DNA of 64,000 nucleotides, from positions 4,323,501 to 4,387,500 of the forward strand of contig NZ_OW485601.1 in NCBI RefSeq assembly GCF_937425535.1. Reading direction: 5' to 3'. Shown one piece after another: positions 7,289 to 63,812 of the stretch (its first letter is position 1; every line of letters begins with the position of its first letter). Both the position numbers and the translations under genes were made by a program. This DNA is from Rhodovastum atsumiense. GTDB lineage: Bacteria > Pseudomonadota > Alphaproteobacteria > Acetobacterales > Acetobacteraceae. The notes below the pieces were generated by a model. The model ran no database searches, was not told the DNA's origin, and saw nothing but the letters and a program-made list of their open reading frames with translations.

Positions 7289-9826
7289 ATGTTCATCGAC
7301 CGGCTGTCCATCCGCAGCAAGCTGGCGTTTGCCTTCGCCGCCCTGGTGCTGATCCTGGCCGTCACCGACGGCATGGCTATCCGCGCCTCCATGGCGCTGC
7401 GCGATCATACCGTCGAGATCGTGGACAACTGGATGCCCTCGACGATGCAGCTCGGCCGGCTGGCCGAAGGGATCGCGCGGCTGCGTCGCAACCAGGGCTC
7501 CGCCATGATCGCGCATCTGCACCGGATCGGGGGCGGCGGCGGCAACGTCTCCGGCGCCCGTGGCCCCGAGGCCCGCCGGCAGATCGACGCGGCCTGGAAC
7601 GGCTACAGGCCGCTGGTGAGCCAGGGCGAGGAGCAGCGCCTCGCCGACGACATCGGCGGACAGTTGCAGCGGTTCCTGGACATGGACGCCGCGTTCCGCG
7701 GGCTGCTCGCGGCCGGCGAGACGGAACGGGCGATCGCCTTCGAGGCCGGGGACTTGCGCGAGACCTATCTGCGTCTGCAGGACGCCGTGCATGCCGACCA
7801 GGACTTCAATCGGGCGATGGCGGTGCAGCTCGGCCGGCAGGCGCGCGCCATCGGGCGGGACGTGCTGTGGCGGACGGGCACCGCCACGGCGCTTGGGGTA
7901 TTGACGGCGCTGCTCGCGGCGATGTGGCTGAACCGCACCGTGACGGCGCGGATCGTGCGGCTGAGCCGGATCATGCGCCAGCTCGGCCGGGGCGACTGCG
8001 CCTTCGACCTGCCCTGCGTGACGCGGGCCGACGAGATCGGCGACATGGCGCGCGGCATCGAGCTCTGCCGCGAAAACATCCTCGCCCGGCGCGAGGGCGA
8101 GGCGGCGTTGCGGCGCACCAACCTGCAGTTCGACGCCGCGCTCGGCAGCATGCTGCAGGGGCTGGTGGTGTGGGACCGGGAGCTGCGGCTGCAACTGGCC
8201 AATGTCCGTTTCTTCGAGATCACCGGCCTGCCCGCGGATGCGCTCGCGCCCGGCATGAGCGTCGAGGCGGTGTGCGCGGCCGGCCTCCGGCACGGGTTCC
8301 ATCCCGACGAGGATCCCGACGCCGCCTGTGCCCGCTACCGGGCGCTGCTGGCGTCGCGGCACCCCCACCAGCACGAGGCCGAGCTGCGGCCGGGGCTGCT
8401 GGTCAAGCTGTTCTTCCAGCCGATGGCCGACGGAGGCTGCGTCGTCACGCTGGAGGACATCACCGAACGGCGCCACAACGAGCAGCAGATCATCCACATG
8501 GCGCGCCACGACGCGCTGACCGGCCTGGCGAACCGGGCCATGTTCCACGACTGCGTGGAGGAAGCGCTCGGCCATGGCCCGGGTGCGGGCTTCGCCGTGT
8601 TCTGCCTCGACCTCGACCATTTCAAGGACGTCAACGACACGCTGGGCCATGCGGTGGGCGACGGCCTGCTGCGCCAGGTCGCCGAGCGGCTGCGGCACTG
8701 CCTGCGCGGGCACGACCCGGTGGCACGGCTCGGCGGCGACGAGTTCGCCGTGCTGGTCGGCGAGCTGGAGGCGCCGGAAGCAGCCATCGCCCTGGCCGGA
8801 CGCATCATCGAGCGGGTCGGCGCTCCCTACGAGGTGGACGGCCATCCCGTCGTCATCGGCGCCAGCATCGGCATCGCCTTGGCCGGGCCCGACACCCGGC
8901 CGGGCGACCTGCTCAAGCGCGCCGACGTGGCGCTCGACAAGGCCAAGGAGGAACGGGGCAGCGCCTGCGTTTTCGTGCCGGGCATGGACGAGCACCTGCA
9001 GCTGCGCCGCGGGCTGGAGGCGGATTTGCGCGCGGCCGTGCAGGCCCGCGAATTCGAGCTGTTCTACCAGCCCCTGTTCAGCCTGGCGCGCAACCGCGTG
9101 ACCGGGTTCGAGGCCTTGCTGCGCTGGCGCAGCCCCCGCCGCGGCATGGTCTCGCCCGCCGAGTTCATCCCGCTCGCCGAGCAGACCGGGCTGATTGTGC
9201 CGATCGGTGAGTGGGTGCTGCGCACCGCCTGCGCCGAGGCGGCGGGCTGGCCGGAAGAGGTGAAGGTGGCGGTCAACCTCTCGCCCGTACAGTTCCGCAG
9301 CCGGGGCCTGGTGGAGACGGTGCGGGAGGCGCTGCAGGAAAGCGGCCTGGCACCGGCACGGCTGGAGCTGGAAATCACCGAGACCGTGCTGCTGCAGGAA
9401 ACCGAAACCGTGATGTCCCTGCTGACCCGGCTGCACGAGCTTGGCGTCAGCATCGCCATGGACGATTTCGGCACCGGCTATTCCTCGTTGAGCTATCTGC
9501 GACGATTCCCCTTCGACAAGATCAAGATCGACCAGTCCTTCATCCGCGAGCTGCAGGCCCCGCCAGCCGGCGCCCCCGCCGAGCCGCCGGGCTGCGCCGC
9601 GGTGATCGTGCGTGCGATCGTGGGACTGGGCGAGAGCCTGGGCATCCAAACCATCGCCGAGGGCGTGGAAACCGCGGCGCAACTGGCGCAATTGCGCCAG
9701 GAAGGCTGCACCGAAGTGCAGGGCTACTTCATCAGCCCGCCGCGGCCGGCCGCCGAGGTCGGGGCGCTGCTGGCACGGCTCAATCCGCCCGGCAGCGGAG
9801 TGGCGCGGGAGCGGGAAGAGGCTTGA
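7289..9826 (+). CDS. Membrane-bound GGDEF-EAL protein (c-di-GMP synthesis/degradation)
   Basis: An 845-residue bifunctional-type c-di-GMP enzyme. Order: TM1 at about 10-32, periplasmic four-helix-type sensor to about 190, TM2 about 191-214, HAMP about 215-265, PAS-like unit about 275-395, GGDEF domain with intact GGDEF near residue 481 and an RxxD inhibitory site (RGHD) five residues before it, then an EAL domain from about 575 with EALLRW near 608, DDFGTGYSSLSYL and DQSF. All hallmark residues for both activities are present; which dominates cannot be read from sequence. The start at 7289 matches the N-terminal pattern (IDRLSIRSKL) of the chemoreceptors at 18880 and 20640. An upstream in-frame ATG at 7127 would add 54 low-quality residues. 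A multi-hairpin repeat follows the stop. Confidence 0.92.
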   Translation: MFIDRLSIRSKLAFAFAALVLILAVTDGMAIRASMALRDHTVEIVDNWMPSTMQLGRLAEGIARLRRNQGSAMIAHLHRIGGGGGNVSGARGPEARRQIDAAWNGYRPLVSQGEEQRLADDIGGQLQRFLDMDAAFRGLLAAGETERAIAFEAGDLRETYLRLQDAVHADQDFNRAMAVQLGRQARAIGRDVLWRTGTATALGVLTALLAAMWLNRTVTARIVRLSRIMRQLGRGDCAFDLPCVTRADEIGDMARGIELCRENILARREGEAALRRTNLQFDAALGSMLQGLVVWDRELRLQLANVRFFEITGLPADALAPGMSVEAVCAAGLRHGFHPDEDPDAACARYRALLASRHPHQHEAELRPGLLVKLFFQPMADGGCVVTLEDITERRHNEQQIIHMARHDALTGLANRAMFHDCVEEALGHGPGAGFAVFCLDLDHFKDVNDTLGHAVGDGLLRQVAERLRHCLRGHDPVARLGGDEFAVLVGELEAPEAAIALAGRIIERVGAPYEVDGHPVVIGASIGIALAGPDTRPGDLLKRADVALDKAKEERGSACVFVPGMDEHLQLRRGLEADLRAAVQAREFELFYQPLFSLARNRVTGFEALLRWRSPRRGMVSPAEFIPLAEQTGLIVPIGEWVLRTACAEAAGWPEEVKVAVNLSPVQFRSRGLVETVREALQESGLAPARLELEITETVLLQETETVMSLLTRLHELGVSIAMDDFGTGYSSLSYLRRFPFDKIKIDQSFIRELQAPPAGAPAEPPGCAAVIVRAIVGLGESLGIQTIAEGVETAAQLAQLRQEGCTEVQGYFISPPRPAAEVGALLARLNPPGSGVAREREEA

Positions 9827-9977
9827 AGGCAAGGCAAGGGCTCTGCCCTTGACCCGGCAGGGGTCAGGGGACCCCTGCACCCCATGAGCGCTGCGCGGCA
9901 TGGAATGGGTTCCAAGGGCGCAGCCCTTGGTCGGTCCAGGGCAAAGCCCTGGTGGGGTGCGGGGCAACGCCCCGCCG
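9827..9977. repeat. Hairpin repeat copy 1 (modules X then Y)
   Basis: Fills the whole gap between convergent GGDEF-EAL and paoC genes. Module X (9827-9900) has the stems AAGGGC/GCCCTT and CAGGGGTC/ACCCCTG and ends in GCGCTGCGCGGCA. Module Y (9901-9976) has CCAAGGGC/GCCCTTGG, CCAGGGC/GCCCTGG and GGGGC/GCCCC. Homologous copies occur at 22336, 34870, 41010 and 52911. A bidirectional terminator role is inferred from its location. Confidence 0.85.
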
Positions 9978-12227
9978 CTACCGTGCCAATACCTTCTCCA
10001 GCGTAATCGGCAGGTCCCGCACGCGCACGCCGGTGGCGTTGAACACGGCGTTGGCGATGGCGGCGGCGGCGCCGACGATGCCGATCTCGCCGATGCCCTT
10101 GGCGCCGAGCGCGTTGACATGTTCGTCGTGTTCCTCGACGAACAGCGCCTCGATCACTGGTACGTCGGCGTTGGTCGGCACGTGGTATTCGCCAAGGTCA
10201 CGGTTGACCCATTGCCCCCAGCGCGGATCCAGCAGTGTTTCTTCCATCAGCGCCTGCCCGATGCCCATGGTGATGCCGCCGATGATCTGCGAGGTGGCGG
10301 TGCGCGGGTTGAGGATGCGTCCGGCGCCGTAGGCCCCGAGCATGCGCCGCACCCGCACTTCCCCGGTGTCTCCGTCCACGCCCACCTCGGCGAACTGAGC
10401 GCCGAAGGCGTGCATGGACCAGTGCTGTTGCGCCGTGTCGGGGTGATGGTCGTGGCTGACCGAAAGCCCCTCCGGCGCAGCGCGCGCCAGCAGCGTGGCC
10501 AGCGCCTCGCCGCGCGCGGGCGTGTCGCGATGGCTGATCCTGCCGTCGGCGAAGGCCAGCGCGTCGGAATTCAGCCCATGCAGGGGCGAGGCGGGGTCCT
10601 GCCGGGCCAGGTCGGCGAGTTGCGCACGCAGCGCAGTGGCGGCGCCGGCCAGCGCCGAGCCGGCACTGCTCGCGCCGAAGGAGCCGCCCGAGCCCATGGT
10701 CATCGGCAGGTCGCTATCGCCGAGCGCCACCTCCACCTGTCCGGGCGCGAGGCCCAGCGCCGCGGCGGCGAGCTGGCGCAGGATCGTATAGGTGCCGGTG
10801 CCGATATCCGTTGCTGCCAGCTCGACCTTTGCGGATCCGTCCGGATGCATGGTCAGCCGCGCCGAGGCCGGCATGTGCAGCACCGGATAGGTCGCCGAGG
10901 CCACGCCCAGCCCGACCCGCCAGCGTCCCTCGCGCCGGCTGCCGGGCGCGCCGCGGCGCTGCCAGCCGAAGCGCTCCGCCCCTTGTTGCAGGCACGCCCG
11001 CAAGGAACGGCTGGACCAGGGCAGGCCGCTCTCCGGGTCGTGGTCGGGTTCGTTGGCCAGGCGCAGCGCGATCGGGTCCATGTCCAGCGCGTGCGCGAGT
11101 TCGTCCATCGCGCTTTCCAGGGCGAAGCTGCCCGGCGCCTCGCCGGGGGCGCGCATCCAGGACGGCGTCGGCGTGTTCAGGCGCACGACGCGGTGCGTGG
11201 TCCGGCGATGCGGCGCCGCATACATGATGCGCGAGATCACGCCTGATTGCTCGACCATCTCGTCGTGGCGCGAGGTCTGCACCCAGGTGTCATGGGCGAT
11301 GGCGACGAGGTGCCCGTCGCGCTGCGCGCCGAGGCGCAGGCGCTGGCGGGTGGCGCTGCGATGACCGTGGCCGGTGAACACCTGCTGGCGGGTCAGCGCC
11401 ACCTTGCAGGGCCGGCCGCTGACGCGCGCGCCGATCGCGGCCAGCACCGCATGCGGATGGGCACCGTATTTCGACCCGAAGCCGCCGCCGATGAAGCGGC
11501 TGATCACCTGCACCCGGTCGGGCGGCAGTTTGAAGGTGGCGGCGAGCGCCTGCGCGCAGGCCCAGGGGCCCTGGTTGCAGTCCTGCACGATCAGCCGCCC
11601 GTCACGCCATTCCGCCACGGCGGCATGCGGCTCGATCGGGTTGTTGTGCTCGTAGGGGGTGGTGTAGGTGGTGTCCAGTTGCACCGGCGCGGCGGCGAAG
11701 GCGGTGACGAAATCGCCCTCCGCGGTGTCGGGCGGGGCGCCGCCATTGACCAGGTTCGGCCGGTAGGCGGAGGGGAGGGCGTCGGCAAAGGACAGTGCTG
11801 CGTCTGCGGGTTCGGCCTCGACGGTGACGAGGGCGGCGGCGGCGCGCGCGGCCTCGAAGCTTTCGGCCAGCACCAGCGCCACCGACTGGCCGTGGAACAG
11901 CACCTCGTCGCGATCGAGCACTGGCTTCGGCCCGATGAACTTGACCTGGATATCATCGGTTTCGACGAAGGGCGCCATGTCCGGAGCATTCGCGCGCGTC
12001 ACCACCGCGACCACGCCCGGGGCGCGCTCCGCCTCCCGCGTGTTGATGGCACGGATGCGGCCGGCGGGCAGGATGGTCAGCACCGGAAAGCCATGCAGCA
12101 GCCCGTGCGGATGGTGCTCGGCGGCGTAGCGGGCCTGGCCGGTGACCTTGGCGGGGCCGTCGGCGCGCGGCGCGGACAGGCCGACATGGCCGCCCCGATT
12201 CTCAGTGATGAAATCGGCGATCGGCAT
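9978..12227 (-). CDS. paoC: Aldehyde oxidoreductase, molybdenum cofactor-binding subunit (PaoC-like)
   Basis: A 749-residue xanthine-oxidase-family large subunit, the last gene of a three-gene operon. The N-terminal a/b-hammerhead domain (VTGQARYAAEHHP onward) is followed by the molybdopterin-binding domains, with SRFIGGGFGSKYG and GEAPGSFALESAMDEL loops. A C-terminal GIGEIGIVG carries the expected catalytic Glu at about residue 714. Family knowledge: PaoC-type subunits bind the Mo-molybdopterin-cytosine dinucleotide cofactor and hydroxylate aldehydes to acids, passing electrons to the Fe-S and FAD subunits. The closest pattern is PaoABC/YagTSR; other aldehyde or purine substrates cannot be excluded. 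Its 5' end lies 3 nt after paoB. No XdhC/PaoD-type cofactor chaperone gene is adjacent. Confidence 0.88.
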   Translation of the reverse strand: MPIADFITENRGGHVGLSAPRADGPAKVTGQARYAAEHHPHGLLHGFPVLTILPAGRIRAINTREAERAPGVVAVVTRANAPDMAPFVETDDIQVKFIGPKPVLDRDEVLFHGQSVALVLAESFEAARAAAALVTVEAEPADAALSFADALPSAYRPNLVNGGAPPDTAEGDFVTAFAAAPVQLDTTYTTPYEHNNPIEPHAAVAEWRDGRLIVQDCNQGPWACAQALAATFKLPPDRVQVISRFIGGGFGSKYGAHPHAVLAAIGARVSGRPCKVALTRQQVFTGHGHRSATRQRLRLGAQRDGHLVAIAHDTWVQTSRHDEMVEQSGVISRIMYAAPHRRTTHRVVRLNTPTPSWMRAPGEAPGSFALESAMDELAHALDMDPIALRLANEPDHDPESGLPWSSRSLRACLQQGAERFGWQRRGAPGSRREGRWRVGLGVASATYPVLHMPASARLTMHPDGSAKVELAATDIGTGTYTILRQLAAAALGLAPGQVEVALGDSDLPMTMGSGGSFGASSAGSALAGAATALRAQLADLARQDPASPLHGLNSDALAFADGRISHRDTPARGEALATLLARAAPEGLSVSHDHHPDTAQQHWSMHAFGAQFAEVGVDGDTGEVRVRRMLGAYGAGRILNPRTATSQIIGGITMGIGQALMEETLLDPRWGQWVNRDLGEYHVPTNADVPVIEALFVEEHDEHVNALGAKGIGEIGIVGAAAAIANAVFNATGVRVRDLPITLEKVLAR

Positions 12228-20639: not shown

Positions 20640-22322
20640 ATGAACAGCATACTCGATCGTTTCAGCATCCGCTCCAAGGTCATCGCGGCATTTGCCGCGG
20701 TGGTGCTGTGTGCCGGCGTGCAGGGGTGGTTTGCCCTGCACGGCCTGGCCTCCGTCAGTGAGGTCAGCGCGCAGCTTGGCAGCGACGGCCTGCCCAGCTC
20801 CCAGGCCATCGGCAAGGTGGCCCAGCTCGCCGAGACCTTCCGGTCCTATCAGAAGCAGGAACTGATGACCGACACGGACGCGGAGCGCCGTGCCAGGGCC
20901 GAGGAGACCCTGAAGGTACGCGGCAGCCTTGTGGACATGCTGAGAGGCTATGTGGTCCTGGGCAAATCCGGCGAAAGAGCCCGGCTGGCGGCCGCGCTCG
21001 ATGCCGCCTGGAACGAGTATGCGGCGCAGTCCGGCCGCTTCGCCGCGCTCGCCGACCCGAAGGAGGCGCGGACCTTTCTCCTGCGCGACATGAACCCGGC
21101 GGCCAGGGCGCTGCGTGCGGCCGTCGATGCGGCGCTTACCTTTGAGGTGGAGAACGGCCGGCGCGCGACCGCGGAGGTGCAGGCGACGGAATCCTCGGTC
21201 AGCCTGGGCATCCTGGTGGCGCTTGGCGTGACGGTGCTGCTGTGCCTCGGGGTGGGGCTGGTCATCGACCGCGACATCGCCGGACCGGTGGTGGCGCTGA
21301 CCGGGGCGATGCGGCTTCTGGCGCGGCGGGAACTGGATGCCACCATCCCCGGTACCGCGCGTAGCGATGAGATGGGGGCGATGGCGCAGGCCGTGGAGGT
21401 GTTCCGCGATGGCATGCGCACCGCCGACCGCCTTGCCGCCGAGCAGGCAGAGGCGCGGGCGGCGCGGGAGCGGCGTGCGGCGAAGGTCGAGACACTGGTG
21501 CAGGATTTCGAGCGGCACTCCGCCGAACTGGTGCACCATCTTTCCGCCTGCGCCACCGAGATGGCGAGCACGGCGACGCAGATGACGCACACGGCGGAGC
21601 AGACCGGGTCACAGGCCGAACTGGTCGCCGCCGGCGCGCATGAAGCCGCCGCCAGCGTGCAGACCGTGGCCTCGGCGACCGAGGAGTTGTCGGCCTCGAT
21701 CGGTGAAATCACGCGGCAGGTCGAGCAATCCACCGCGATCGCGCACCAGGCGGTGGAGGAGGCGCAGCGCACCGATGCCACCGTGCGCGCGCTGGCCGAA
21801 GGGGCGCAGAAGATCGGCGACGTGGTCGGGCTGATCACCAGTATCGCCGGGCAGACCAATTTGCTGGCGCTGAATGCGACGATCGAGGCGGCACGGGCGG
21901 GCGAGGCCGGCCGTGGCTTCGCGGTGGTGGCGACCGAGGTGAAGAGCCTGGCGGCGCAGACGGCGCGGGCGACCGAGGAGATCGGCGCGCAGATCGGGCG
22001 CATCCAGGCGGCGACGCAGGACGCGGTCACCGCGATCGGCGGCATCGCCCGCATCATCGGGCAGGTCAACGACATCACCGGCACGATCGCGGTCGCGGTG
22101 AAGGAACAGGGCGCGGCCACCGCCGAGATCTCGCGCAGCGTGCAGCAGGCCGCCAACGGCACCGGCGAGGTGACGCGCAACATCACCGGCGTCAGCCGTG
22201 CCGTCGGCGAGACCGGCGTGGCGTCGCAGCAGGTGCGCGAAGTGGCCGACGGGCTGTCGCGGGATGCCGAGAAACTGGCGAGCCAGGTGGGCGGCTTCAT
22301 CGCCGGTGTGCGCGCCGCCTGA
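20640..22322 (+). CDS. Methyl-accepting chemotaxis protein, tandem copy 2
   Basis: A 560-residue paralogue of the preceding gene, 77 nt downstream and exactly the same length. The architecture is the same: TM1, periplasmic helical sensor to about 187, TM2, HAMP, signalling domain with [20 protein letters not shown], ending FIAGVRAA. The HAMP-to-end DNA is nearly base-for-base the same as copy 1, with most differences synonymous. The periplasmic domain (roughly 35-187) is clearly divergent. This is the mark of a recent duplication, or of gene conversion acting on the signalling half. Cotranscription with copy 1 is likely. An X/Y hairpin repeat follows the stop and probably ends the transcript. 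Confidence 0.93.
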
Positions 22323-22335
22323 CGCGGGGAAAAGG

Positions 22336-22487
22336 AATGGGATCCAAGGGCCTTGTGGCCCTTGGTGGAGGTCCAGGAGGCAAAGCCTCCTGGTGGGGTT
22401 TGGGGCGAAGCCCCAAGGGAAGGCAAGGGCTCCGCCCTTGACCCGGCAGGGGCCACAAGGCCCCTGCACCCCAGTCTCGCTGCGCGG
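22336..22487. repeat. Hairpin repeat copy 2 (modules Y then X)
   Basis: Lies between convergent chemoreceptor 2 and the MFS gene. Module Y (22336-22415) has CCAAGGGCC/GGCCCTTGG and CCAGGAGGC/GCCTCCTGG stems. Module X (22416-22487) has CAAGGGC/GCCCTTG and GCAGGGGCC-ACAA-GGCCCCTGC and ends CGCTGCGCGG. The module order is the reverse of copies 1 and 5, as if cut from an alternating X-Y array. Confidence 0.87.
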
Positions 22488-22488
22488 C

Positions 22489-24141
22489 TTACCGGAACAG
22501 CAGCAGCGCCTTCTGCAGCGTGATCCAGATCCCCCAGGCGAGCGGAATCCACACCACCGCCCAGGCCAGCGTCACTTTCCACGAATGCACCACCTGCCCG
22601 CCGAGGGCCGCGACATCGGCGACGAAATGCTGGTGCGTGTCGTCGGCGATCCGCTTCTCGGCGGCCGCTTCCGGCTCGGTCATGTGATGCTTCTCGGCCA
22701 CCGGCGTCACCAGCCAGTTGCAGAGCGCGCCCAGCGCGAGCAGCCCGGCCAGGATGTACATGGTGATCGAATAGACATCCTGCCGGGCGACGCCGTGGTC
22801 GAGCTGGTATTCGCGGATGTAGTTCACCAGCACCGGGCCGAGCACGCCCGCCGTCGACCACGCCGTCAGCAGGCGGCCATGGATCGCCCCCACCATCCTG
22901 GTCCCGAACATGTCGGCGAGATAGGCCGGCACGGTGGCGAAGCCGCCGCCGTACATCGACAGGATCACGCAGAAGATGCCGACGAACAGCGCGAGCGCGC
23001 CGGCGCGGGCGGCGAGGGGCACCGAGGCATAGAGCGCCATGCCGAGCAGGAAGAAGGCGAAATAGGTCGCCTTGCGGCCGATCCGGTCGGACAGCGAGGC
23101 CCAGAAGAAGCGCCCGCCGATGTTGAACAGCGACAGCAGCCCGGTGAACCCCGCGGCCACCGCGGCGATCTGGCCTTTCTGCGCGGGCGTCAGCTCGCTG
23201 AAGCCGGCCTCGATGCCGATCAGCCGGCCACCGAACACTTCCTGCAGCAGCGGCGAGGCCATGCCGAGGATGCCGATGCCCGCCGTCACGTTCAGGCACA
23301 GCACGCCCCAGACCAGCCAGAACTGCCGCGTCTTCCAGGCCACGTCGAGATGCACGTGGCGGGTGGTGATGAAGCCGTTCTGCGTGGCCGGGTCGGGCGG
23401 CGTCCAGCCGGCCGGCTTCCAGCCCTCGGCCGGCACCCGGTAGCCGAGCGCGCCGCCCATCATGAACACGAAGTAGATCGCCGCCATGACGACGAAGGTT
23501 TCCCACACCCCCACCGAATGGGGGGTGGCGAAAGAGCGCATCAGCATGTCGGCGAGTGGCGCGCCGATCATCGCGCCGCCGCCGAAGCCCATGATCGCCA
23601 TGCCGGTGGCCATGCCGCGCCGGTCGGGGAACCACTTGATCAGCGTGGACACCGGCGAGATGTAGCCGAGCCCAAGCCCGATGCCGCCGATCACCCCGGA
23701 GCCGAGCCACATCAGCCAGAGCTGATGGGTGGCCACCCCGAGCGCCGAGATCAGCAGGCCACCGCACCAGCACAGCGCCGAGACCACACCCGCCTTGCGT
23801 GGGCCGGCCCGTTCCAGCCAGCCGCCCCAGATCGCCGCCGAGGAGCCGAGGAAGACGAAGAACAGCGTATACATCCAGCCGAGCTGGGAAATTTTCCAGT
23901 CGCAGCCGGTGGCGACGATCTCAGCCAGGAACCCCATGTCCCTGGGGCAGGCGATCGGCTCGGTGATGCCGACGGCGCGCGACAGCGGCAGCCAGAACAC
24001 CGAGAAGCCATAGGCCATGCCGATGCAAAGGTGAATTGCCAGCGCCGCCGGCGGCACCAGCCAGCGATTGAAGTTCGAAGGCGCAACGATACGTTCTCGT
24101 GACAGGAAGGCAGGCGCGGGGAGAGTCGCGGTGACATCCAT
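22489..24141 (-). CDS. MFS transporter, oxalate/formate antiporter (OFA)-like
   Basis: A 550-residue major-facilitator protein with about 12 transmembrane helices. It resembles the OFA/monocarboxylate branch: WLVPPAALAIHLCIGMAYGF at TM1, an A-like motif around KWFPDRRGMATGMAIMGFGG, and SLSDRIGRKATY between TM8 and TM9. It is longer than typical OFA members because of a periplasmic insertion after TM1 (about 60-85, with two cysteines), a central loop of about 60 residues and an extended C-terminus. The substrate is probably a small carboxylate (inference). The start at 24141 begins MDVTATLPAP with a weak GGGTGG upstream; an in-frame ATG at 24309 would add an unlikely Arg/Pro-rich leader. No oxalate or formate enzyme genes are adjacent. 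Confidence 0.88.
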   Translation of the reverse strand: MDVTATLPAPAFLSRERIVAPSNFNRWLVPPAALAIHLCIGMAYGFSVFWLPLSRAVGITEPIACPRDMGFLAEIVATGCDWKISQLGWMYTLFFVFLGSSAAIWGGWLERAGPRKAGVVSALCWCGGLLISALGVATHQLWLMWLGSGVIGGIGLGLGYISPVSTLIKWFPDRRGMATGMAIMGFGGGAMIGAPLADMLMRSFATPHSVGVWETFVVMAAIYFVFMMGGALGYRVPAEGWKPAGWTPPDPATQNGFITTRHVHLDVAWKTRQFWLVWGVLCLNVTAGIGILGMASPLLQEVFGGRLIGIEAGFSELTPAQKGQIAAVAAGFTGLLSLFNIGGRFFWASLSDRIGRKATYFAFFLLGMALYASVPLAARAGALALFVGIFCVILSMYGGGFATVPAYLADMFGTRMVGAIHGRLLTAWSTAGVLGPVLVNYIREYQLDHGVARQDVYSITMYILAGLLALGALCNWLVTPVAEKHHMTEPEAAAEKRIADDTHQHFVADVAALGGQVVHSWKVTLAWAVVWIPLAWGIWITLQKALLLFR

Positions 24142-24765: not shown

Positions 24766-24797
24766 GGGCGGGATTTCATCCCATACCGGCGCAGACA

Positions 24798-24825
24798 GGC
24801 GGGCCAGGCTGATGCCTGGCCCGCC
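24798..24825 (+). terminator. Strong hairpin after small secreted protein gene
   Basis: A perfect 12-bp stem GGCGGGCCAGGC / GCCTGGCCCGCC around a TGAT loop, 32 nt after the stop. There is no T-run. It lies between convergent genes and could stop transcription from either side. Confidence 0.6.
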
Positions 24826-24856
24826 GGCCCGGAAACAGGGAGGATGACACGCCAGT

Positions 24857-24872
24857 CACAGTCACGACTGTG
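24857..24872. repeat. Short perfect dyad CACAGTC-AC-GACTGTG
   Basis: Seven-base perfect arms around AC in the same convergent gap, about 30 bp after the strong hairpin. It could be a second terminator-like stem or a protein site. No further evidence. Confidence 0.4.
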
Positions 24873-24977
24873 TCTACGTTTGGCGAATGGCGCGGTTCCT
24901 GTCGGAATCTACGGTAAGTATTCTTGCTGAAGACATGAAGTTTCGCATTATTTATTGCCAGGAAACCGGCGAAGTCC

Positions 24978-34774: not shown

Positions 34775-34861
34775 TGTAGGGCGGACGCAGTCCGCCATCG
34801 CAAGCCAGCCACCTCGTGGAGTGCGGCGATGGCGGATTGCGCTGCGCTTATCCGCCCTACA
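34775..34861. repeat. MITE-like repeat B, copy 1
   Basis: An 87-bp element bounded by perfect 11-bp terminal inverted repeats (TGTAGGGCGGA ... TCCGCCCTACA), with an internal GGCGGA/TCCGCC-type dyad as well. A related copy in inverted orientation is at 41101-41179. Flanked by X module sequence. No transposase is present, so if mobile it would need help in trans. Confidence 0.8.
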
Positions 34862-34869
34862 TTCGCTGA

Positions 34870-34940
34870 GCCGCGCAGCGCTAATGGGGTGCAGGGCTCT
34901 CCTGACCCCTGCTGGGTCCAGGGCGAAGTCCTGGCCTTGC
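34870..34940. repeat. Hairpin repeat copy 3 (module X, inverted)
   Basis: The reverse complement of module X: CCGCGCAGCG, then GCAGGG/CCCCTGC and CCAGGGC/GTCCTGG stems (more diverged than the other copies). It overlaps the 3' end of cysN, supplying its last ~19 codons and the TAG stop. It lies between the convergent usp and cysN genes. Confidence 0.82.
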
Positions 34941-36533
34941 GCTGATGGCGCGCATCTTCACTGTCACCAGCTCCAGCATGCGGAAATTGCCCAGCAGCGT
35001 GCCGCCGGTCTTGCCCCAGGACAGGGTCGCCCAGGCACGTTCGTGCAGGTAGAACAGACCGATCTTGGTGAACACCTCCGCCCCGGCGATACCGCCCGCG
35101 AGCTTCAGGTGGCCGGTGATCAGCCAGCTCAGCAGGAAGGTGTCGATCGAGCCAGTGATGCGCCAGGTGACGCCCTTGGCCAGGCTGCGCCAGTGCCATT
35201 CGCGCAGCGGCGGGGCCGGCGCGTCGTCCATCACCATGCCCAGGGCCACGGTGGCGTTGCTGTCGCGGTCCACCAGGATGAAGCCGCCGAGTTCCCGGTC
35301 TTCCTCGTAGCGCGCGGCGGCGATGCTGCGGTCGAGCTTCAGCGTGACAAGGCCGATGCCGTTCGCCTCCAGCCCGTCCGCCGGCATCTGTTCGAAGGAG
35401 TGGATGTCGATCGCATGGTGCAGGACGGTGACGCGTGCGCCCGCAGTGGCGGTGGCGAGGCGGATCTCGTATTCGCCGCCACGACCGAGCGGGGTGTCGT
35501 CCATCCACAGCAGGCGTGCGGTCAGTTCCCGCCGTGGCCGCAGCCCGTCCTCGGCGCCGATGATGACGTCGCCGCGGGAGATGTCGATGTCTTCCTGCAG
35601 GGTCAGCGTCACCGCCTGCCCGGCGACGGCGTCGGCAACGTCCCCGTCGCCGCCGACGATGCGTGCCACCGTGGCGGCATGGCCGCCCGGCAGCACGCGC
35701 ACGCGCTGGCCGGGATGGACGCTGCCGCGCACGAGCGTGCCGGCATAGCCGCGGAAGCCGGCGCTGCGCCGGTTCACCCATTGCACTGGCAGGCGCGGCG
35801 ACAGCGTCGCTTCCTCGGCGTGCGTCGGCTCGATGGTTTCAAGGTAGCCGAGCAGGGTGGGGCCATCGTACCAGCCCATGCGCACGGAAGGCCGGACCAG
35901 GTTGTCGCCCTCGCGCGCGCAGAGCGGGATGGCGATGACCGAGGCGAAGCCGAGCGGGGCGACGACGCGGCGGAACTCGGCGACGATGGCCTCGAAGGCG
36001 GCTTCGTCGAAGCCGACGAGATCCATCTTGTTGACCGCCAGCACCAGGTGCGGCACGCGCAGCATGCCGGCGATGAAGGCGTGGCGGCGGGTCTGCGGCT
36101 GGATGCCGCGGCGCGCATCGACCAGGATCACGGCGAGGTCGGCGCCGGCGGCACCGGTCGCCATGTTGCGCGTGTATTGCTGGTGGCCGGGGGTGTCGGC
36201 GACGATGAAGGCGCGCCGGCGCGTGGCGAAGTAACGATAGGCGACGTCGATGGTGATGCCCTGCTCGCGCTCGGCGGACAGGCCGTCCACCAGCAGCGCG
36301 AAATCCAGATCCCCGCCGGTGGTGCCCCAGCGGCGGGAGTCCTTTTCCAGCGTCGCCATCTGGTCGGAGGGCACCAGCCCGGCATCGTGCAGCAGCCGGC
36401 CGATCAGCGTCGACTTGCCGTCATCGACCGAGCCGCAGGTGAGGAAGCGCAGCAGCGAGACCGGGCGCGCCGGCAGCCCGGCGACGGGAAGGGCGTCCTC
36501 CAGCAGCGCCGCATCGGGGGGCAGGGCGTCCAT
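34881..36533 (-). CDS. cysN: Sulfate adenylyltransferase subunit 1 CysN with fused DUF2061-like segment
   Basis: A 550-residue protein. Residues about 25-440 are the GTPase subunit of ATP sulfurylase: GSVDDGKST (G1), DTPGHQQY (G3), NKMDL (G4), then EF-Tu-like beta domains. CysN-CysD activates sulfate to adenylyl sulfate using GTP hydrolysis. After the core, where many CysN proteins carry an APS-kinase (CysC) domain, there is instead KGVTWRITGSIDTFLLSWLI (from about 451) and GLFYLHERAWATLSWGK. This resembles the small membrane-associated DUF2061 domain. No cysC is present, consistent with the APS-reductase route of CysH. The last ~19 residues derive from repeat X. The start overlaps the cysD stop by one base. 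Confidence 0.9.
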   Translation of the reverse strand: MDALPPDAALLEDALPVAGLPARPVSLLRFLTCGSVDDGKSTLIGRLLHDAGLVPSDQMATLEKDSRRWGTTGGDLDFALLVDGLSAEREQGITIDVAYRYFATRRRAFIVADTPGHQQYTRNMATGAAGADLAVILVDARRGIQPQTRRHAFIAGMLRVPHLVLAVNKMDLVGFDEAAFEAIVAEFRRVVAPLGFASVIAIPLCAREGDNLVRPSVRMGWYDGPTLLGYLETIEPTHAEEATLSPRLPVQWVNRRSAGFRGYAGTLVRGSVHPGQRVRVLPGGHAATVARIVGGDGDVADAVAGQAVTLTLQEDIDISRGDVIIGAEDGLRPRRELTARLLWMDDTPLGRGGEYEIRLATATAGARVTVLHHAIDIHSFEQMPADGLEANGIGLVTLKLDRSIAAARYEEDRELGGFILVDRDSNATVALGMVMDDAPAPPLREWHWRSLAKGVTWRITGSIDTFLLSWLITGHLKLAGGIAGAEVFTKIGLFYLHERAWATLSWGKTGGTLLGNFRMLELVTVKMRAISARPGLRPGPSRGQESPAPH

Positions 36534-38617: not shown

Positions 38618-41005
<2,388 letters not shown>

Positions 41006-41009
41006 AGAG

Positions 41010-41084
41010 GAAGGAAGGCCAGGGCGCTGCCCTGGACCCGGCAGGGGCCACAAGGCCCCTGCACCCCAATAGCGCTGCGCGGCA
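41010..41084. repeat. Hairpin repeat copy 4 (module X)
   Basis: GGAAGGCCAGGGC/GCCCTGG, then GCAGGGGCC-ACAA-GGCCCCTGC, ending GCGCTGCGCGGCA. It begins 5 nt after the kinase stop, and repeat B copy 2 follows. Compared with the locus at 34775-34940 this is the same X+B pair in the opposite orientation. Confidence 0.87.
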
Positions 41085-41100
41085 CGGGAACTTCAGCAAA

Positions 41101-41179
41101 TGTAGGGCGGATCAGCGCAGCGCAATCCGCCATCGCGAGGGTGCCGGCTTGCGTTGGCGGACATGCGTCCGCCCTGCGT
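41101..41179. repeat. MITE-like repeat B, copy 2
   Basis: Begins TGTAGGGCGGA like copy 1; the far end (TCCGCCCTGCG) has two changes in the terminal repeat. It aligns with the reverse complement of 34775-34861 through most of its length (GCGCAGCGCAATCCGCCATCG shared, here split by position). It lies in the convergent gap before rpfF. Confidence 0.75.
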
Positions 41180-52403: not shown

Positions 52404-52910
52404 ATGGCCTACCCGCGCAACAAGATCGCCGAACTGATCGACGGCAGCATCGATCCCGATACCCTGCACAAGATGCTCGCCGATGCCAAGGATCCCGGCC
52501 GGTTCAGCACCTATGTGGACATCCTGCAGGAACGCGTACCCTGGAAGGACCGCATCATCCTGCCCTATGGGCCGAAGCTTTACTGCGTGCAGGTGGCGGC
52601 GACGAAGCAATGGACCATCCGTTGCGAATGCGGCCACGATTTCTGCGACCAGCGCGAGAACTGGAAACTGCACGCGCTGATCAACGTCCGCGATACCCCG
52701 GAGGCGCTGGAGGAAATCTATCCGCGGCTGATGGCGCCGAGTGGGGACTGGCAGGTGTACCGGGAATATTTCTGCCCGGAATGCGGCACGCTGCACGACG
52801 TGGAGGCCCCGACGCCGTGGTACCCGGTGATCCATGACTTCGAGCCGGATATCGAGGCATTCTATCGGGAATGGCTCAACCTGCCGGTGCCGGAACGGGC
52901 GGCGGCGTAG
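52404..52910 (+). CDS. acxC: Acetone carboxylase gamma subunit
   Basis: A 168-residue protein that matches the small gamma subunit (about 19.6 kDa) of acetone carboxylase. It has two Cys pairs that can hold zinc (RCECGHDFC at about 74-82 and YFCPECGTL at about 121-129) and the conserved end TPWYPVIHDFEPDIEAFYREW. This subunit is specific to acetone/acetophenone-type carboxylases and is absent from ordinary hydantoinases, so it fixes the identity of the operon. Last gene of acxABC. An X-Y hairpin repeat begins at the stop codon and probably ends the transcript. Confidence 0.92.
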   Translation: MAYPRNKIAELIDGSIDPDTLHKMLADAKDPGRFSTYVDILQERVPWKDRIILPYGPKLYCVQVAATKQWTIRCECGHDFCDQRENWKLHALINVRDTPEALEEIYPRLMAPSGDWQVYREYFCPECGTLHDVEAPTPWYPVIHDFEPDIEAFYREWLNLPVPERAAA

Positions 52911-53068
52911 CAAGGGAAGGCCAGGGCTCTGCCCTGGACCCGGCAGGGGCCACAAGGCCCCTGCACCCCATTCGCGCTGCGCGGCACGAAATGGGTTCCA
53001 AGGGCGACGCCCTTGGTGGAGGTCCAGGAGGCGAAGCCTCCTGGTGGGGCGCGGGGCAACGCCCCGCC
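52911..53068. repeat. Hairpin repeat copy 5 (modules X then Y), most complete
   Basis: Module X (52911-52985): CCAGGGC-TCT-GCCCTGG (52921-52937) and GCAGGGGCC-ACAA-GGCCCCTGC (52943-52964), then CGCTGCGCGGCA. Module Y (52986-53068): CCAAGGGC-GAC-GCCCTTGG (52998-53016), CCAGGAGGC-GAA-GCCTCCTGG (53024-53044) and GCGGGGC-AAC-GCCCCGC (53051-53067). Five perfect stems in 158 bp, filling the gap between the convergent acxC and LysR genes. Confidence 0.9.
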
Positions 53069-53081
53069 ACCCTGTCCGCAC

Positions 53082-53972
53082 TCAGTTGAGAAGGCGGTTG
53101 GCGCGCAGACGCGACACCACCAGGTCGACGAAGGTCCTGACCTTGGCCGGGGCGTGGCGGCCTTCGGGGTGAAGCACGTGGATGGGGAGCGGCGGTTCCT
53201 CGTACTCGGCGAGCACGATCTCCAGGTCGCCTGCGAGCAGTGCCGGTCCGATCTGGTAGTGAAGCACCCTGGTCAGGCCCCATCCGCCCTTGGCGGTCGC
53301 GATCACCGCCTCGTTGGTGTTGCACTGGAGGATGGGGGTGATGGTCACCCGCTGATCCCGGGCGAACCGCCATTCAGGCGAGGCCCACGCACTCGTGGAG
53401 GCGGCGATGCGATGGTTCCTGAGATCGGCGGGTGTCGCCGGAACACCATGCTTCTCGAAATAGGCCGGGGAGCCGCAGACGACGCGTCGGACCGTGCCGA
53501 CCTTGATGGCGGTAAAGCCCGAGTCGGGCAGGTGGCCGATCCGCACGGCAACATCGATGCCCTCTTCAACGATGTTGACCGGGCGATCGACGAAGAAGGC
53601 CCTGGCGCGCATGGTCGGGTACGTGTTCAGATATTCGGTTATGATCGGCAACACGTGCATCTGTCCGAACAGCGCCGAGGCCGTGACGGCCAGTGTCCCG
53701 GACGGCGTGGCATAGGAACCGGCCGCGGCTGCCTCAGCTTCGGCGATGTCCGACAGTATCCGCCGGCAGTCGTCGAGATAGCGTGCTCCTGCTTCGGTCA
53801 TCTTCACCGAACGGGTGGTGCGAACGAAAAGCCGGGCGCCGATCATATCCTCAAGCGCCGCCACGGCGCGCGTCACGGCGGGAGCACTCATGTGCATGTG
53901 GCGCGCGGTCTCGGTGAAGCTTTCCGTCTCGGCGACCTTCACAAAGATCCGCATCGCCTGCCACCGATCCAT
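53082..53972 (-). CDS. LysR-family transcriptional regulator
   Basis: A 296-residue LysR protein of the CrgA/PA-type subgroup: RIFVKVAETESFTETARHMH at the N-terminus, SAPAVTRAVAALEDMIGARL for the DNA-recognition helix, RTTRSVKMTEAGARYLDDCR, then an effector domain with DVAVRIGHLPDSGF. It is the third gene of a minus-strand cluster with the GST and the fused reductase, 85 bp after the latter, and likely regulates that cluster. The start at 53972 has AAGGG 7 nt upstream; a longer reading from 54035 lacks a ribosome site. The inducer is unknown. Confidence 0.92.
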   Translation of the reverse strand: MDRWQAMRIFVKVAETESFTETARHMHMSAPAVTRAVAALEDMIGARLFVRTTRSVKMTEAGARYLDDCRRILSDIAEAEAAAAGSYATPSGTLAVTASALFGQMHVLPIITEYLNTYPTMRARAFFVDRPVNIVEEGIDVAVRIGHLPDSGFTAIKVGTVRRVVCGSPAYFEKHGVPATPADLRNHRIAASTSAWASPEWRFARDQRVTITPILQCNTNEAVIATAKGGWGLTRVLHYQIGPALLAGDLEIVLAEYEEPPLPIHVLHPEGRHAPAKVRTFVDLVVSRLRANRLLN

Positions 53973-61595: not shown

Positions 61596-63812
61596 ATGCG
61601 CCACCCGCTGGTCCGCGATCTGGTCGGCGGCCTGGGCCTGCTGGTGGCCCTGCTGATCGCCGTCGGGGTGCCGGCCGGCCATTACGTCATCGGCGAGATC
61701 ACCCTGCGGGAGGCGCTGGCCTTCCGCGCCCAGCTCAGCGCCGCCCGCGCCGCGCAGTTCATCTTCGTCCATCAGCGCATGTGGCAGTACCAGCATCTCC
61801 GCCTTGCCGAGCTGATCGCCCTGCCGCCGGGCAGCGACCTGGCGGTGCGCCAGCGCCTGACGGATCTGGCCGGGCGGGTGGTCGTGCAGGAAACCACCGC
61901 GTTGGGGGCGCCGCTGCGCCGGGGGCAGGCGCCCATCCTGGTGGCGGGGGAGACGGTGGGGTGGGTCGCGGTGGAGGCAAGCCTGCGGCCGTTGCTGGGC
62001 GGCACCGTGTGGGTCGCCGGCGCCAGCCTGCTGCTGGGCCTGCTGGCCTGGGCCAGCATCCGGCTGTTGCCGCTGCGGGTGCTCGACCGGACGCTGACGC
62101 GGCTGTCGCAGGAAAGCGCGCGCTTCCAGGCGGCGCTGGACAACATGGCGCAGGGGCTGTGTCTGTTCGACGGCGACGACCGGCTGGTGGTCTGCAACCG
62201 CCGCTTCGCCGCCATGTTTGGCCGCCCGGTGGTGGGCAGCGTTGCCGCGGCGTTGTCATCCGGCGCGGACATCGCGCCGCTGTTCGCCCCGCCCGATCCG
62301 GCGCGCTCCGGGCCGCAGGACGGCGGCACGCACGAGCTGGACGACGGGCGGGTGATCCAGGTGTCGCGCCAGGTGATCCCCGGCGAGGGCTGGGTCGCGA
62401 CCTTCGACGACATCACCGAGCGCCGGCGCTCCCAGGAGCGGCTGGCGCACATGGCGCGGCACGACGCGCTGACCGGGCTGCCGAACCGGCTGATGCTGCG
62501 CGAGCATCTGGAAGCGGCGCGGGCGCAGGCGCGGCAGGGCCGCCGGTTCGCCGTGTTCTGCCTCGACCTCGACGGCTTCAAGGGCGTCAACGACGCGCTG
62601 GGCCAGGCGGCCGGCGACGAGTTGCTGTGCCTGGTGGCGCGGCGCCTGCGTGCGGTGGCGCGTGACATCGATTTCGTGGCGCGGCTGGGCGGGGATGAGT
62701 TCGCGCTGGTGCAGGCGGAGGTGGATGGCCCGGAGGCGGTGACGGGGCTGGCGGAGCGGCTGGCTGAGATCCTGCGCGCCCCGTTCACGCTGCGCGGCGA
62801 GGTGGTGGGGCTCGGTGCCAGCATCGGCGTCGCCCTGGCGGAGGATCCGGACCCGGGCGCCGACGTGCTGCTGTGCCATGCCGATGCCGCCCTGCATCAG
62901 GCCCGCGCCGCCGGGCGCGGCCTGTGGCGGCTGTTCCAGCCGGAGATGGAGGCCGGGATCCGCCAGCGGCGGCAACTGGAGACCGAGCTGCGCTCGGCGC
63001 TGGCGGCGGAGCAATTCGAGGTCTTCTACCAGCCGCTGGTGGAGGCGCGCACGCTGGCGCTGGCCGGCTTCGAGGCGCTGGTGCGCTGGCGCCATCCCGG
63101 GCGCGGCCTGGTGCCGCCGGGGGAGTTCATCCCGCTGCTGGAAGAGACCGGCCTGATCGGCCCGCTGGGCAGTTGGGTGCTGGCGCGCGCCTGCGCGGAC
63201 GCGGCGGGGTGGCCCGCGCATCTGCGGCTGGCGGTCAATCTCTCGCCGGTGCAGGTGCTCAATGCGCGGCTGGTGCAGGAGGTCGCGCAGGCGCTGGCGG
63301 GCGCGGGGCTGGCGCCGCAGCGGCTGGAGCTGGAAATCACCGAGACCGTGCTGCTGCAGGACAACGAGGTGACGCTGGGCGTGTTGCGGCGGCTGCACGA
63401 GCTGGGCGTGCGCATCAGCATGGACGATTTCGGCACCGGGTATTCCAGCCTCAGCTACCTGCGGCGCTTTCCCTTCGACAAGATCAAGGTCGACCAGTCC
63501 TTCGTGCACACGCTGCCCCGCGACCGCGGCGGCATCCCGATCATCCGCGCCGTCACCGGTCTGGGCCGCGCCCTGGGCATGCGGGTGCTGGCCGAGGGGG
63601 TGGAGACCGTCGAGCAGATGGAGATCCTGCGCGAGGAAGGCTGCGACGAACTGCAGGGCTTCCTGTTCGGCCGGCCCGCGCCGCTGTGCGAGGCGGCGGA
63701 GGTCATTGCCCGTGACCTGGCCGGCGAGCGGCCCGGCGCCGCGGGCCAGTGTCCTGTTCCGGCCCCCGCGCCAGGCGCGACGGCCCGGGGAATCCTGCGC
63801 TCGATTCGTTGA
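61596..63812 (+). CDS. Membrane GGDEF-EAL protein coupled to a binding protein
   Basis: A 738-residue c-di-GMP enzyme. TM1 about 10-30, a periplasmic loop of about 100 residues, TM2 about 132-152, a PAS-like unit about 172-270, GGDEF domain with intact GGDEF at about 366 and the RDID inhibitory site, then EAL with EALVRW at about 493, DDFGTGYSSLSYL and DQSF. It starts directly after the stop of the binding-protein gene, so it is translationally coupled. The pairing suggests that the loaded or empty binding protein contacts the periplasmic loop and sets c-di-GMP output (inference). Its stop lies 16 bp from a convergent EAL gene. Confidence 0.92.
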   Translation: MRHPLVRDLVGGLGLLVALLIAVGVPAGHYVIGEITLREALAFRAQLSAARAAQFIFVHQRMWQYQHLRLAELIALPPGSDLAVRQRLTDLAGRVVVQETTALGAPLRRGQAPILVAGETVGWVAVEASLRPLLGGTVWVAGASLLLGLLAWASIRLLPLRVLDRTLTRLSQESARFQAALDNMAQGLCLFDGDDRLVVCNRRFAAMFGRPVVGSVAAALSSGADIAPLFAPPDPARSGPQDGGTHELDDGRVIQVSRQVIPGEGWVATFDDITERRRSQERLAHMARHDALTGLPNRLMLREHLEAARAQARQGRRFAVFCLDLDGFKGVNDALGQAAGDELLCLVARRLRAVARDIDFVARLGGDEFALVQAEVDGPEAVTGLAERLAEILRAPFTLRGEVVGLGASIGVALAEDPDPGADVLLCHADAALHQARAAGRGLWRLFQPEMEAGIRQRRQLETELRSALAAEQFEVFYQPLVEARTLALAGFEALVRWRHPGRGLVPPGEFIPLLEETGLIGPLGSWVLARACADAAGWPAHLRLAVNLSPVQVLNARLVQEVAQALAGAGLAPQRLELEITETVLLQDNEVTLGVLRRLHELGVRISMDDFGTGYSSLSYLRRFPFDKIKVDQSFVHTLPRDRGGIPIIRAVTGLGRALGMRVLAEGVETVEQMEILREEGCDELQGFLFGRPAPLCEAAEVIARDLAGERPGAAGQCPVPAPAPGATARGILRSIR

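Follow-up and report, generated by a model that had tools for sequence, protein, structure and literature searches.

The X/Y element, noticed in five copies in the 64,000-nt stretch of Rhodovastum atsumiense DNA analyzed here (hereafter the window), is a high-copy repeat built of inverted arms of hairpins, which nearly always lies directly behind stop codons, is present or absent at the same junction in different species and is spread through one bacterial family. With a probability of roughly 0.7, we regard it as a palindromic, non-autonomous repeat akin to REPs and BIMEs that is acquired and lost as an entire unit and persists behind stop codons, where it would do the least harm. It lacks both the GTAG/CGTC tag and a firm link to a RAYT (REP-associated tyrosine transposase), and it probably influences mRNA 3' ends as a side effect. 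This reading is based on the 102 elements of a genome sample, on their absence from all 179 divergent gaps of 71-400 bp, on turnover at seven of the nine element-bearing junctions shared with a relative and on the similarity of copies within a genome, as well as on the placement preference shared by the GTAG REPs of the source genome and by published REPs (as far as the accessible text of PMC3733652 goes).

In the proposed mechanism, the unit would be an inverted pair of arms (X together with the reverse complement of Y), each arm being a string of GC-rich hairpins, and single arms would be remnants or half units. Such a unit would move by transposition or some other copying process, would come and go as a whole, and would persist immediately downstream of stop codons, at a distance from promoters. 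Its hairpins would be transcribed, mildly affecting mRNA 3' ends, and the candidate effects, as reported for the E. coli REPs, are exonuclease protection, partial termination and ribosome pausing near the stop codon.

Copies in the window and across the genome

A blastn search with 52911-53080 recovered the five homologous elements described in the initial annotation (Table 1), with matches at 9826-9976, 22336-22414 and 22414-22488, 34870-34938 (minus strand) and 41013-41086; the remaining matches in the window were cross-matches between X and Y inside the elements and short weak ones (62776-62798, E 0.029). Independent gene calls confirm that all five lie between convergent genes and nowhere else in the window, and they reproduce the abutting convergent pairs that had been named as lacking the element. 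The window contains ten convergent junctions, five of which hold an element (in gaps of 116, 151, 166, 171 and 189 bp), the others being four abutting or near-abutting pairs and the 212-bp gap 24766-24977. The copy at 34870 is counted below as intragenic, because it overlaps the called end of a gene. Two of the junctions also carry a GTAG-type REP, and X/Y is likewise present in 6 of the 19 GTAG-REP-bearing gaps of the 2.02-Mb sample.

Table 1. Copies of the X/Y element, and of a second repeat family, in the window.
Feature	Positions	Strand	Context
Most complete copy, X then Y	52911..53068	+	Between 52404-52910 and 53082-53972; immediately follows the former's stop codon, ends 13 bp short of the stop end of the latter
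Arm X of the most complete copy	52915..52984	+	Profile match and X alignment
Arm Y of the most complete copy	52990..53066	+	Three stems; profile match and Y alignment
X-then-Y copy	9827..9977	+	Takes up the entire space separating 7289-9826 (+) from 9978-12227 (-)
Y (22336-22414) then X (22418-22487) copy	22336..22488	+	Between 20640-22322 (+) and 22489-24141 (-)
X arm alone	34870..34940	-	Overlaps the called end of 34881-36533 (-) by ~60 bp
X arm alone	41010..41086	+	Behind the stop of 38639-41005 (+)
GTAG-type REP (other repeat family)	34827..34860	-	Shares its junction with X at 34870
GTAG-type REP (other repeat family)	41102..41135	+	Shares its junction with X at 41010

For the genome, 98 evenly spaced 20-kb stretches of the 6.48-Mb contig (one of nine contigs) were taken together with the window, giving 2.024 Mb with 1735 gene calls (from a simple caller rather than an annotation pipeline) and 251 convergent, 249 divergent and 1136 codirectional junctions. 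When this sample was searched with profiles of the two arms, it yielded 149 non-redundant modules in 102 elements: 45 are convergent and 48 codirectional, 3 are divergent (each in a gap >400 bp) and 6 overlap gene calls; with the window excluded, the 97 elements divide into 41 convergent, 48 codirectional, 3 divergent and 5 intragenic. At this density the whole contig would hold about 330 elements. Three of the six intragenic elements span a gene 3' end or end within 20 nt of one (the window copy at 34870 being one of these), another is set back 52 nt into a gene from its 3' end, and the last two abut a called 5' end. The convergent-only placement seen in the window is therefore rejected as a rule by the 2.02-Mb sample. 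The initial annotation had named equally common copies in divergent or codirectional gaps as evidence against its reading, and in raw counts codirectional copies outnumber convergent ones, 48 to 45. Of its proposals, a repeat “tolerated only there” fits best, provided that “there” stands for gene 3' ends.

When gaps of 71-400 bp are compared, 40 of 98 convergent, 45 of 388 codirectional and none of 179 divergent gaps are occupied, convergent gaps remaining the richest; since a convergent gap has two gene 3' ends, the comparison per 3' end becomes 40/196 against 45/388. As a working rule, the element lies within 15 nt of a stop codon, which holds (overlaps included) for 40 of the 48 codirectional and 43 of the 45 convergent copies, 28 of the latter being that close to both stops. 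For codirectional copies, the median distance from the upstream stop is 7 nt, and that to the start of the next gene is 70 nt. A module is found at -30 to 40 nt of 126 of the 1630 gene 3' ends, compared with 16 of 1735 5' ends, and because X/Y is thus the 3' flank of so many sampled genes, it matters for expression work and for assembly. Near 3' ends, arm X has its 5' end toward the stop in 56 of 65 cases, and arm Y its 3' end in 39 of 61. There is a mild avoidance of tight codirectional pairs: no more than 30 bp is left besides the element in 15 of the 48 codirectional copies, as against 544 of all 1136 codirectional gaps (p 0.02), which any polar effect would explain.

The source genome also contains GTAG REPs of the GTAGGGCGGAT type (23 in 19 clusters of the 2.02-Mb sample), with 13 clusters convergent, 5 codirectional and 1 divergent. 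Placement alone is consequently no proof of function, since these REPs and the published ones (in the accessible part of PMC3733652) prefer the same sites. The GTAG REPs lie 9-88 nt from the nearest stop at convergent junctions, and at codirectional ones at a median of 48 nt (5 clusters only) versus 7 nt for X/Y. This greater proximity, together with the strict orientation of X, makes mere tolerance an insufficient account; also against it, divergent copies do occur in relatives G001 and G004. These make up 2 of 48 elements in G001 and 4 of 35 in G004, and occupy 1 of 33 and 4 of 44 divergent gaps of 71-400 bp, respectively, in stretches that were picked around elements and so carry no information on density; in 120 kb of G001 not picked in this way, 1 of 7 placeable modules is divergent.

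Arm architecture and folding

Arm X is made up, in this order, of a purine box and stem A, of GACCC and stem B, and of CACCCCAT with an almost invariant CGCTGCGCGG box; the purine box, immediately outside stem A, is conserved as AAGNAAGG (n=65). In reverse complement, Y is built alike, as stem, ACC, stem and ACCCAT, and it cross-matches X, which makes the element an inverted pair of arms; X and Y, initially described as separate modules, are in fact related, as seen by blastn, profiles and alignments. The initial description as a string of stems is borne out, the fold of 52905-53085 containing the five main stems as described and beating 200 of 200 shuffles on both strands (z -4.54 and -5.84). 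An inverted-repeat search found no inverted arms of at least 14 nt in the copy at 52911..53068, whose arms have diverged and whose hairpins form individually. Relatives have retained the complementarity of the arms, which form palindromes of ~240-330 bp there: a G001 copy has complementary arm blocks of 33-42 nt at 88% (fold z -18.9), a G024 copy has inverted arms of 121 nt at 81%, and the G020 copy L260:1479-1804 is a giant palindrome, with 96-nt arms at 85%, a perfect 60-nt inverted repeat inside and a 5-nt loop.

In the sampled genome, stem pairing is kept in 99.6% of cells over 58 X and 66 Y copies (the X alignment left out 8 of 66 near-full-length modules, all longer than the rest, and the Y alignment 5 of 71, most of them longer), while two-sided changes affect 59 cells of X and 14 of Y. 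Whole subfamilies have these changes in common, and stems show no significant deficit of private changes (for X, 4 in 32 stem columns against 5 in 36 outside; for Y, 5 in 45 against 6 in 28), so that two-sided changes were rejected as proof of selection and do not establish the upkeep of single copies. In some X copies, stem B and its flank are the reverse complement of the first stem of Y (CCAAGGGCC...GGCCCTTGGATCCCAT; X columns 29-57, Y columns 4-30), and whole hairpins may thus be exchanged between the arms.

Possible effects at mRNA 3' ends

The initial annotation proposed a bidirectional terminator, and a dedicated one, put behind genes by selection, would account for the placement at gene 3' ends and for the full XY copies that span convergent gaps and leave 0-15 nt to the stop on each side (28 of 45). 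It would also agree with the purine box outside stem A, which reads CCTTNCTT outward, with the CTTTCTTT-like tract that follows the outward-reading outer stem in some copies and with the mild avoidance of tight codirectional pairs. We nevertheless consider it improbable. Of 115 element-bearing ends, 15 have a U-tract hairpin, as do 39 of the 469 other ends (Fisher p 0.15, by a scan of uncalibrated sensitivity), which makes a canonical terminator unlikely as the general role. Moreover, codirectional X arms put their T-rich flank on the antisense strand in 27 of 29 cases, 18 of the 48 codirectional copies end no more than 30 nt ahead of the next start, and in G001 copies lie between gene pairs that abut in the source genome. 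Overall, the arrangement of an intrinsic terminator (a GC-rich hairpin and then a U-tract) is not found, although it is found in some single copies; these may act as terminators, given the CTTTCTTT-like tract behind their outer stem. What speaks for the initial proposal is the partial avoidance of tight codirectional pairs, and what speaks against it is that most stems are without a U-tract and that canonical terminators are not depleted at element-bearing ends, which also led us to reject their replacement by X/Y.

In E. coli, REPs have been reported to protect mRNA, to play a role in termination and to stall ribosomes when located within 15 nt of the stop codon (work cited in the accessible part of PMC5082802). 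By analogy, X/Y could be a selected mRNA 3'-end element, either protecting the message or slowing the last ribosome from a place within about 15 nt of the stop and lowering expression. The proximity of codirectional and convergent copies to stops (40/48 and 43/45 within 15 nt), the almost complete stem pairing with its two-sided changes and the effects reported for E. coli point this way. On the other hand, the two-sided changes are common to whole subfamilies, stems are not poorer in private changes than the rest of the arms and most element-bearing shared junctions differ between species, and we find selection for such a role quite improbable. A part as 3'-end stabilizer, also raised initially, would be compatible with these observations.

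Turnover, relation to known repeats and spread

Among 73 junctions whose two genes are also neighbors in a same-genus relative (at least 45% identity), nine carry the element, all nine being codirectional (just three convergent junctions were shared): two in both species, five in the relative only and two in the source genome only. Two of the relative-only junctions (L220 and L251) are weak, because the modules overlap gene calls there; the clear ones measure 135, 189 and 266 bp with the element, versus an overlap, 32 and 5 bp in the source genome, and G001 has copies between pairs that abut in the latter. In the clear source-only case, a 264-bp gap with the element compares with 36 bp in G004. 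Copies are more similar within the source genome (0.86) than between genomes (0.78 and 0.81), and a tree of 113 X modules has 12 species-label changes against a shuffled mean of 45.6 (with few columns and many forks open), X copies clustering by species without forming single clades. At the orthologous empty sites, divergence of the flanks obscures the exact ends and any target site duplication. Where two elements stand less than 3 kb from each other, the eight proteins encoded between them are all metabolic, so that a parent transposon there was rejected. That neither a mobilizing enzyme nor a target duplication was identified speaks against a mobile repeat.

In its placement (45 convergent, 48 codirectional and 3 divergent of 102), X/Y agrees with the tagged REPs, which, in the accessible part of PMC3733652, are high-copy palindromes found mostly at convergent and codirectional junctions, within 20 bp of gene 3' ends (both of them at convergent sites, the upstream one at codirectional sites) and often as inverted dimers with structured spacers. 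Unlike these, the X and Y consensus sequences contain neither GTAG nor CGTC nor their complements (as read at consensus level), there is no firm RAYT link, and the arms have two or three hairpins and 70-77 nt, compared with 20-40 bp for the tagged REPs; X/Y was not filed under these superfamilies because both consensus sequences are without the defining tag. Like the REPINs (accessible part of PMC3116915), which are inverted doublets that fold into one hairpin and act as a unit, X/Y pairs X with an inverted Y here and has complementary arms in G001, G020 and G024; it differs in its multi-hairpin arms and in having no assigned cognate RAYT. Br-REP1 of Bradyrhizobium, also alphaproteobacterial, has three palindromes, lies where the 3'-UTRs of convergent genes overlap and is seen in cDNA, although its core CCGGAATCTCGAGATTCCGG is different (accessible part of PMC5082802). 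The terminal inverted repeats of the G020 and G024 copies (96 nt at 85% and 121 nt at 81%) are of the kind found in MITEs. The BIMEs of E. coli are mosaics of inverted palindromic units in 3'-UTRs with effects at the transcript level, and X/Y shares this mosaic plan and location, differing in sequence, tag and reported protein partners. The comparison with Rfam proposed initially yielded no family membership, with no match in the window at the gathering threshold and sub-threshold matches alone at the element. No title or abstract opening among the papers listed from the openly readable literature describes this sequence family.

A RAYT looked attractive as mobilizer because RAYT genes occur in five same-genus genomes (own included). 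The only match of the source genome (L197:1405-1938, about 3804172-3804705 of G000:C1) is a bona fide RAYT (NF047646, 197 bits; nearest solved relative TnpA-REP 4er8, E 4.6e-51). That X/Y is an ordinary RAYT-driven REPIN with a drifted tag would also suit the inverted-pair plan and the occurrence of X within 0.5 kb of the RAYT in two of the five same-genus loci, above the expectation from copy density (on both sides in G002, at 57 and 479 nt, and on one side in G001, at 227 nt). This origin is nonetheless highly improbable: all five RAYT genes examined are, by reading, bordered by another repeat, starting with GTAG (the GTAGGGCGGAT type in the source genome), the nearest X lies 6.4 kb from the source-genome RAYT within its 20-kb stretch, 12 of the 20 family genomes with X/Y (own included) are without a RAYT match and two genomes with a RAYT are without X/Y. 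The RAYT was set aside as mobilizer for the GTAG kind of its bordering repeats.

It is possible, if unlikely, that X/Y is a tagless, RAYT-independent mobile palindrome, inserted in an oriented manner behind stop codons by a yet-to-be-found enzyme and persisting across many genera of one family. If so, it would provide ready-made 3'-UTRs for hundreds of genes per genome, and should the mobilizer be something other than a RAYT, the customary explanation for the spread of REP-like repeats would be incomplete.

A 158-base query matches 20 of 60 genomes (own included), all of them among the 36 of the same family, and a 63-base query matches 50 of the 150 genomes sampled from the order (own included), with the same family for all matches listed; X/Y enlarges the REP-like repeats by a family that belongs to neither of the tagged superfamilies. 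Copies that could be placed in four other genera (locus-edge copies aside, and with those repeated in four overlapping loci of one G026 contig counted once) are 14 codirectional, 11 convergent and none divergent. Plasmid-borne spread was rejected, a plasmid collection giving no match at E 1e-5, and X/Y was absent at E 0.01 from 80 named loci around an unrelated gene. On G026:C1, five X arms in the same orientation occupy 1.9 kb (102047-103915; L098, L263, L267 and L275), spaced as for a repeated unit of ~0.93 kb. In G024, many X matches fall in the first ~110 bp of a contig (C105, C40, C20, C155, C113, C31 and C21), as if the repeat had broken the assembly.
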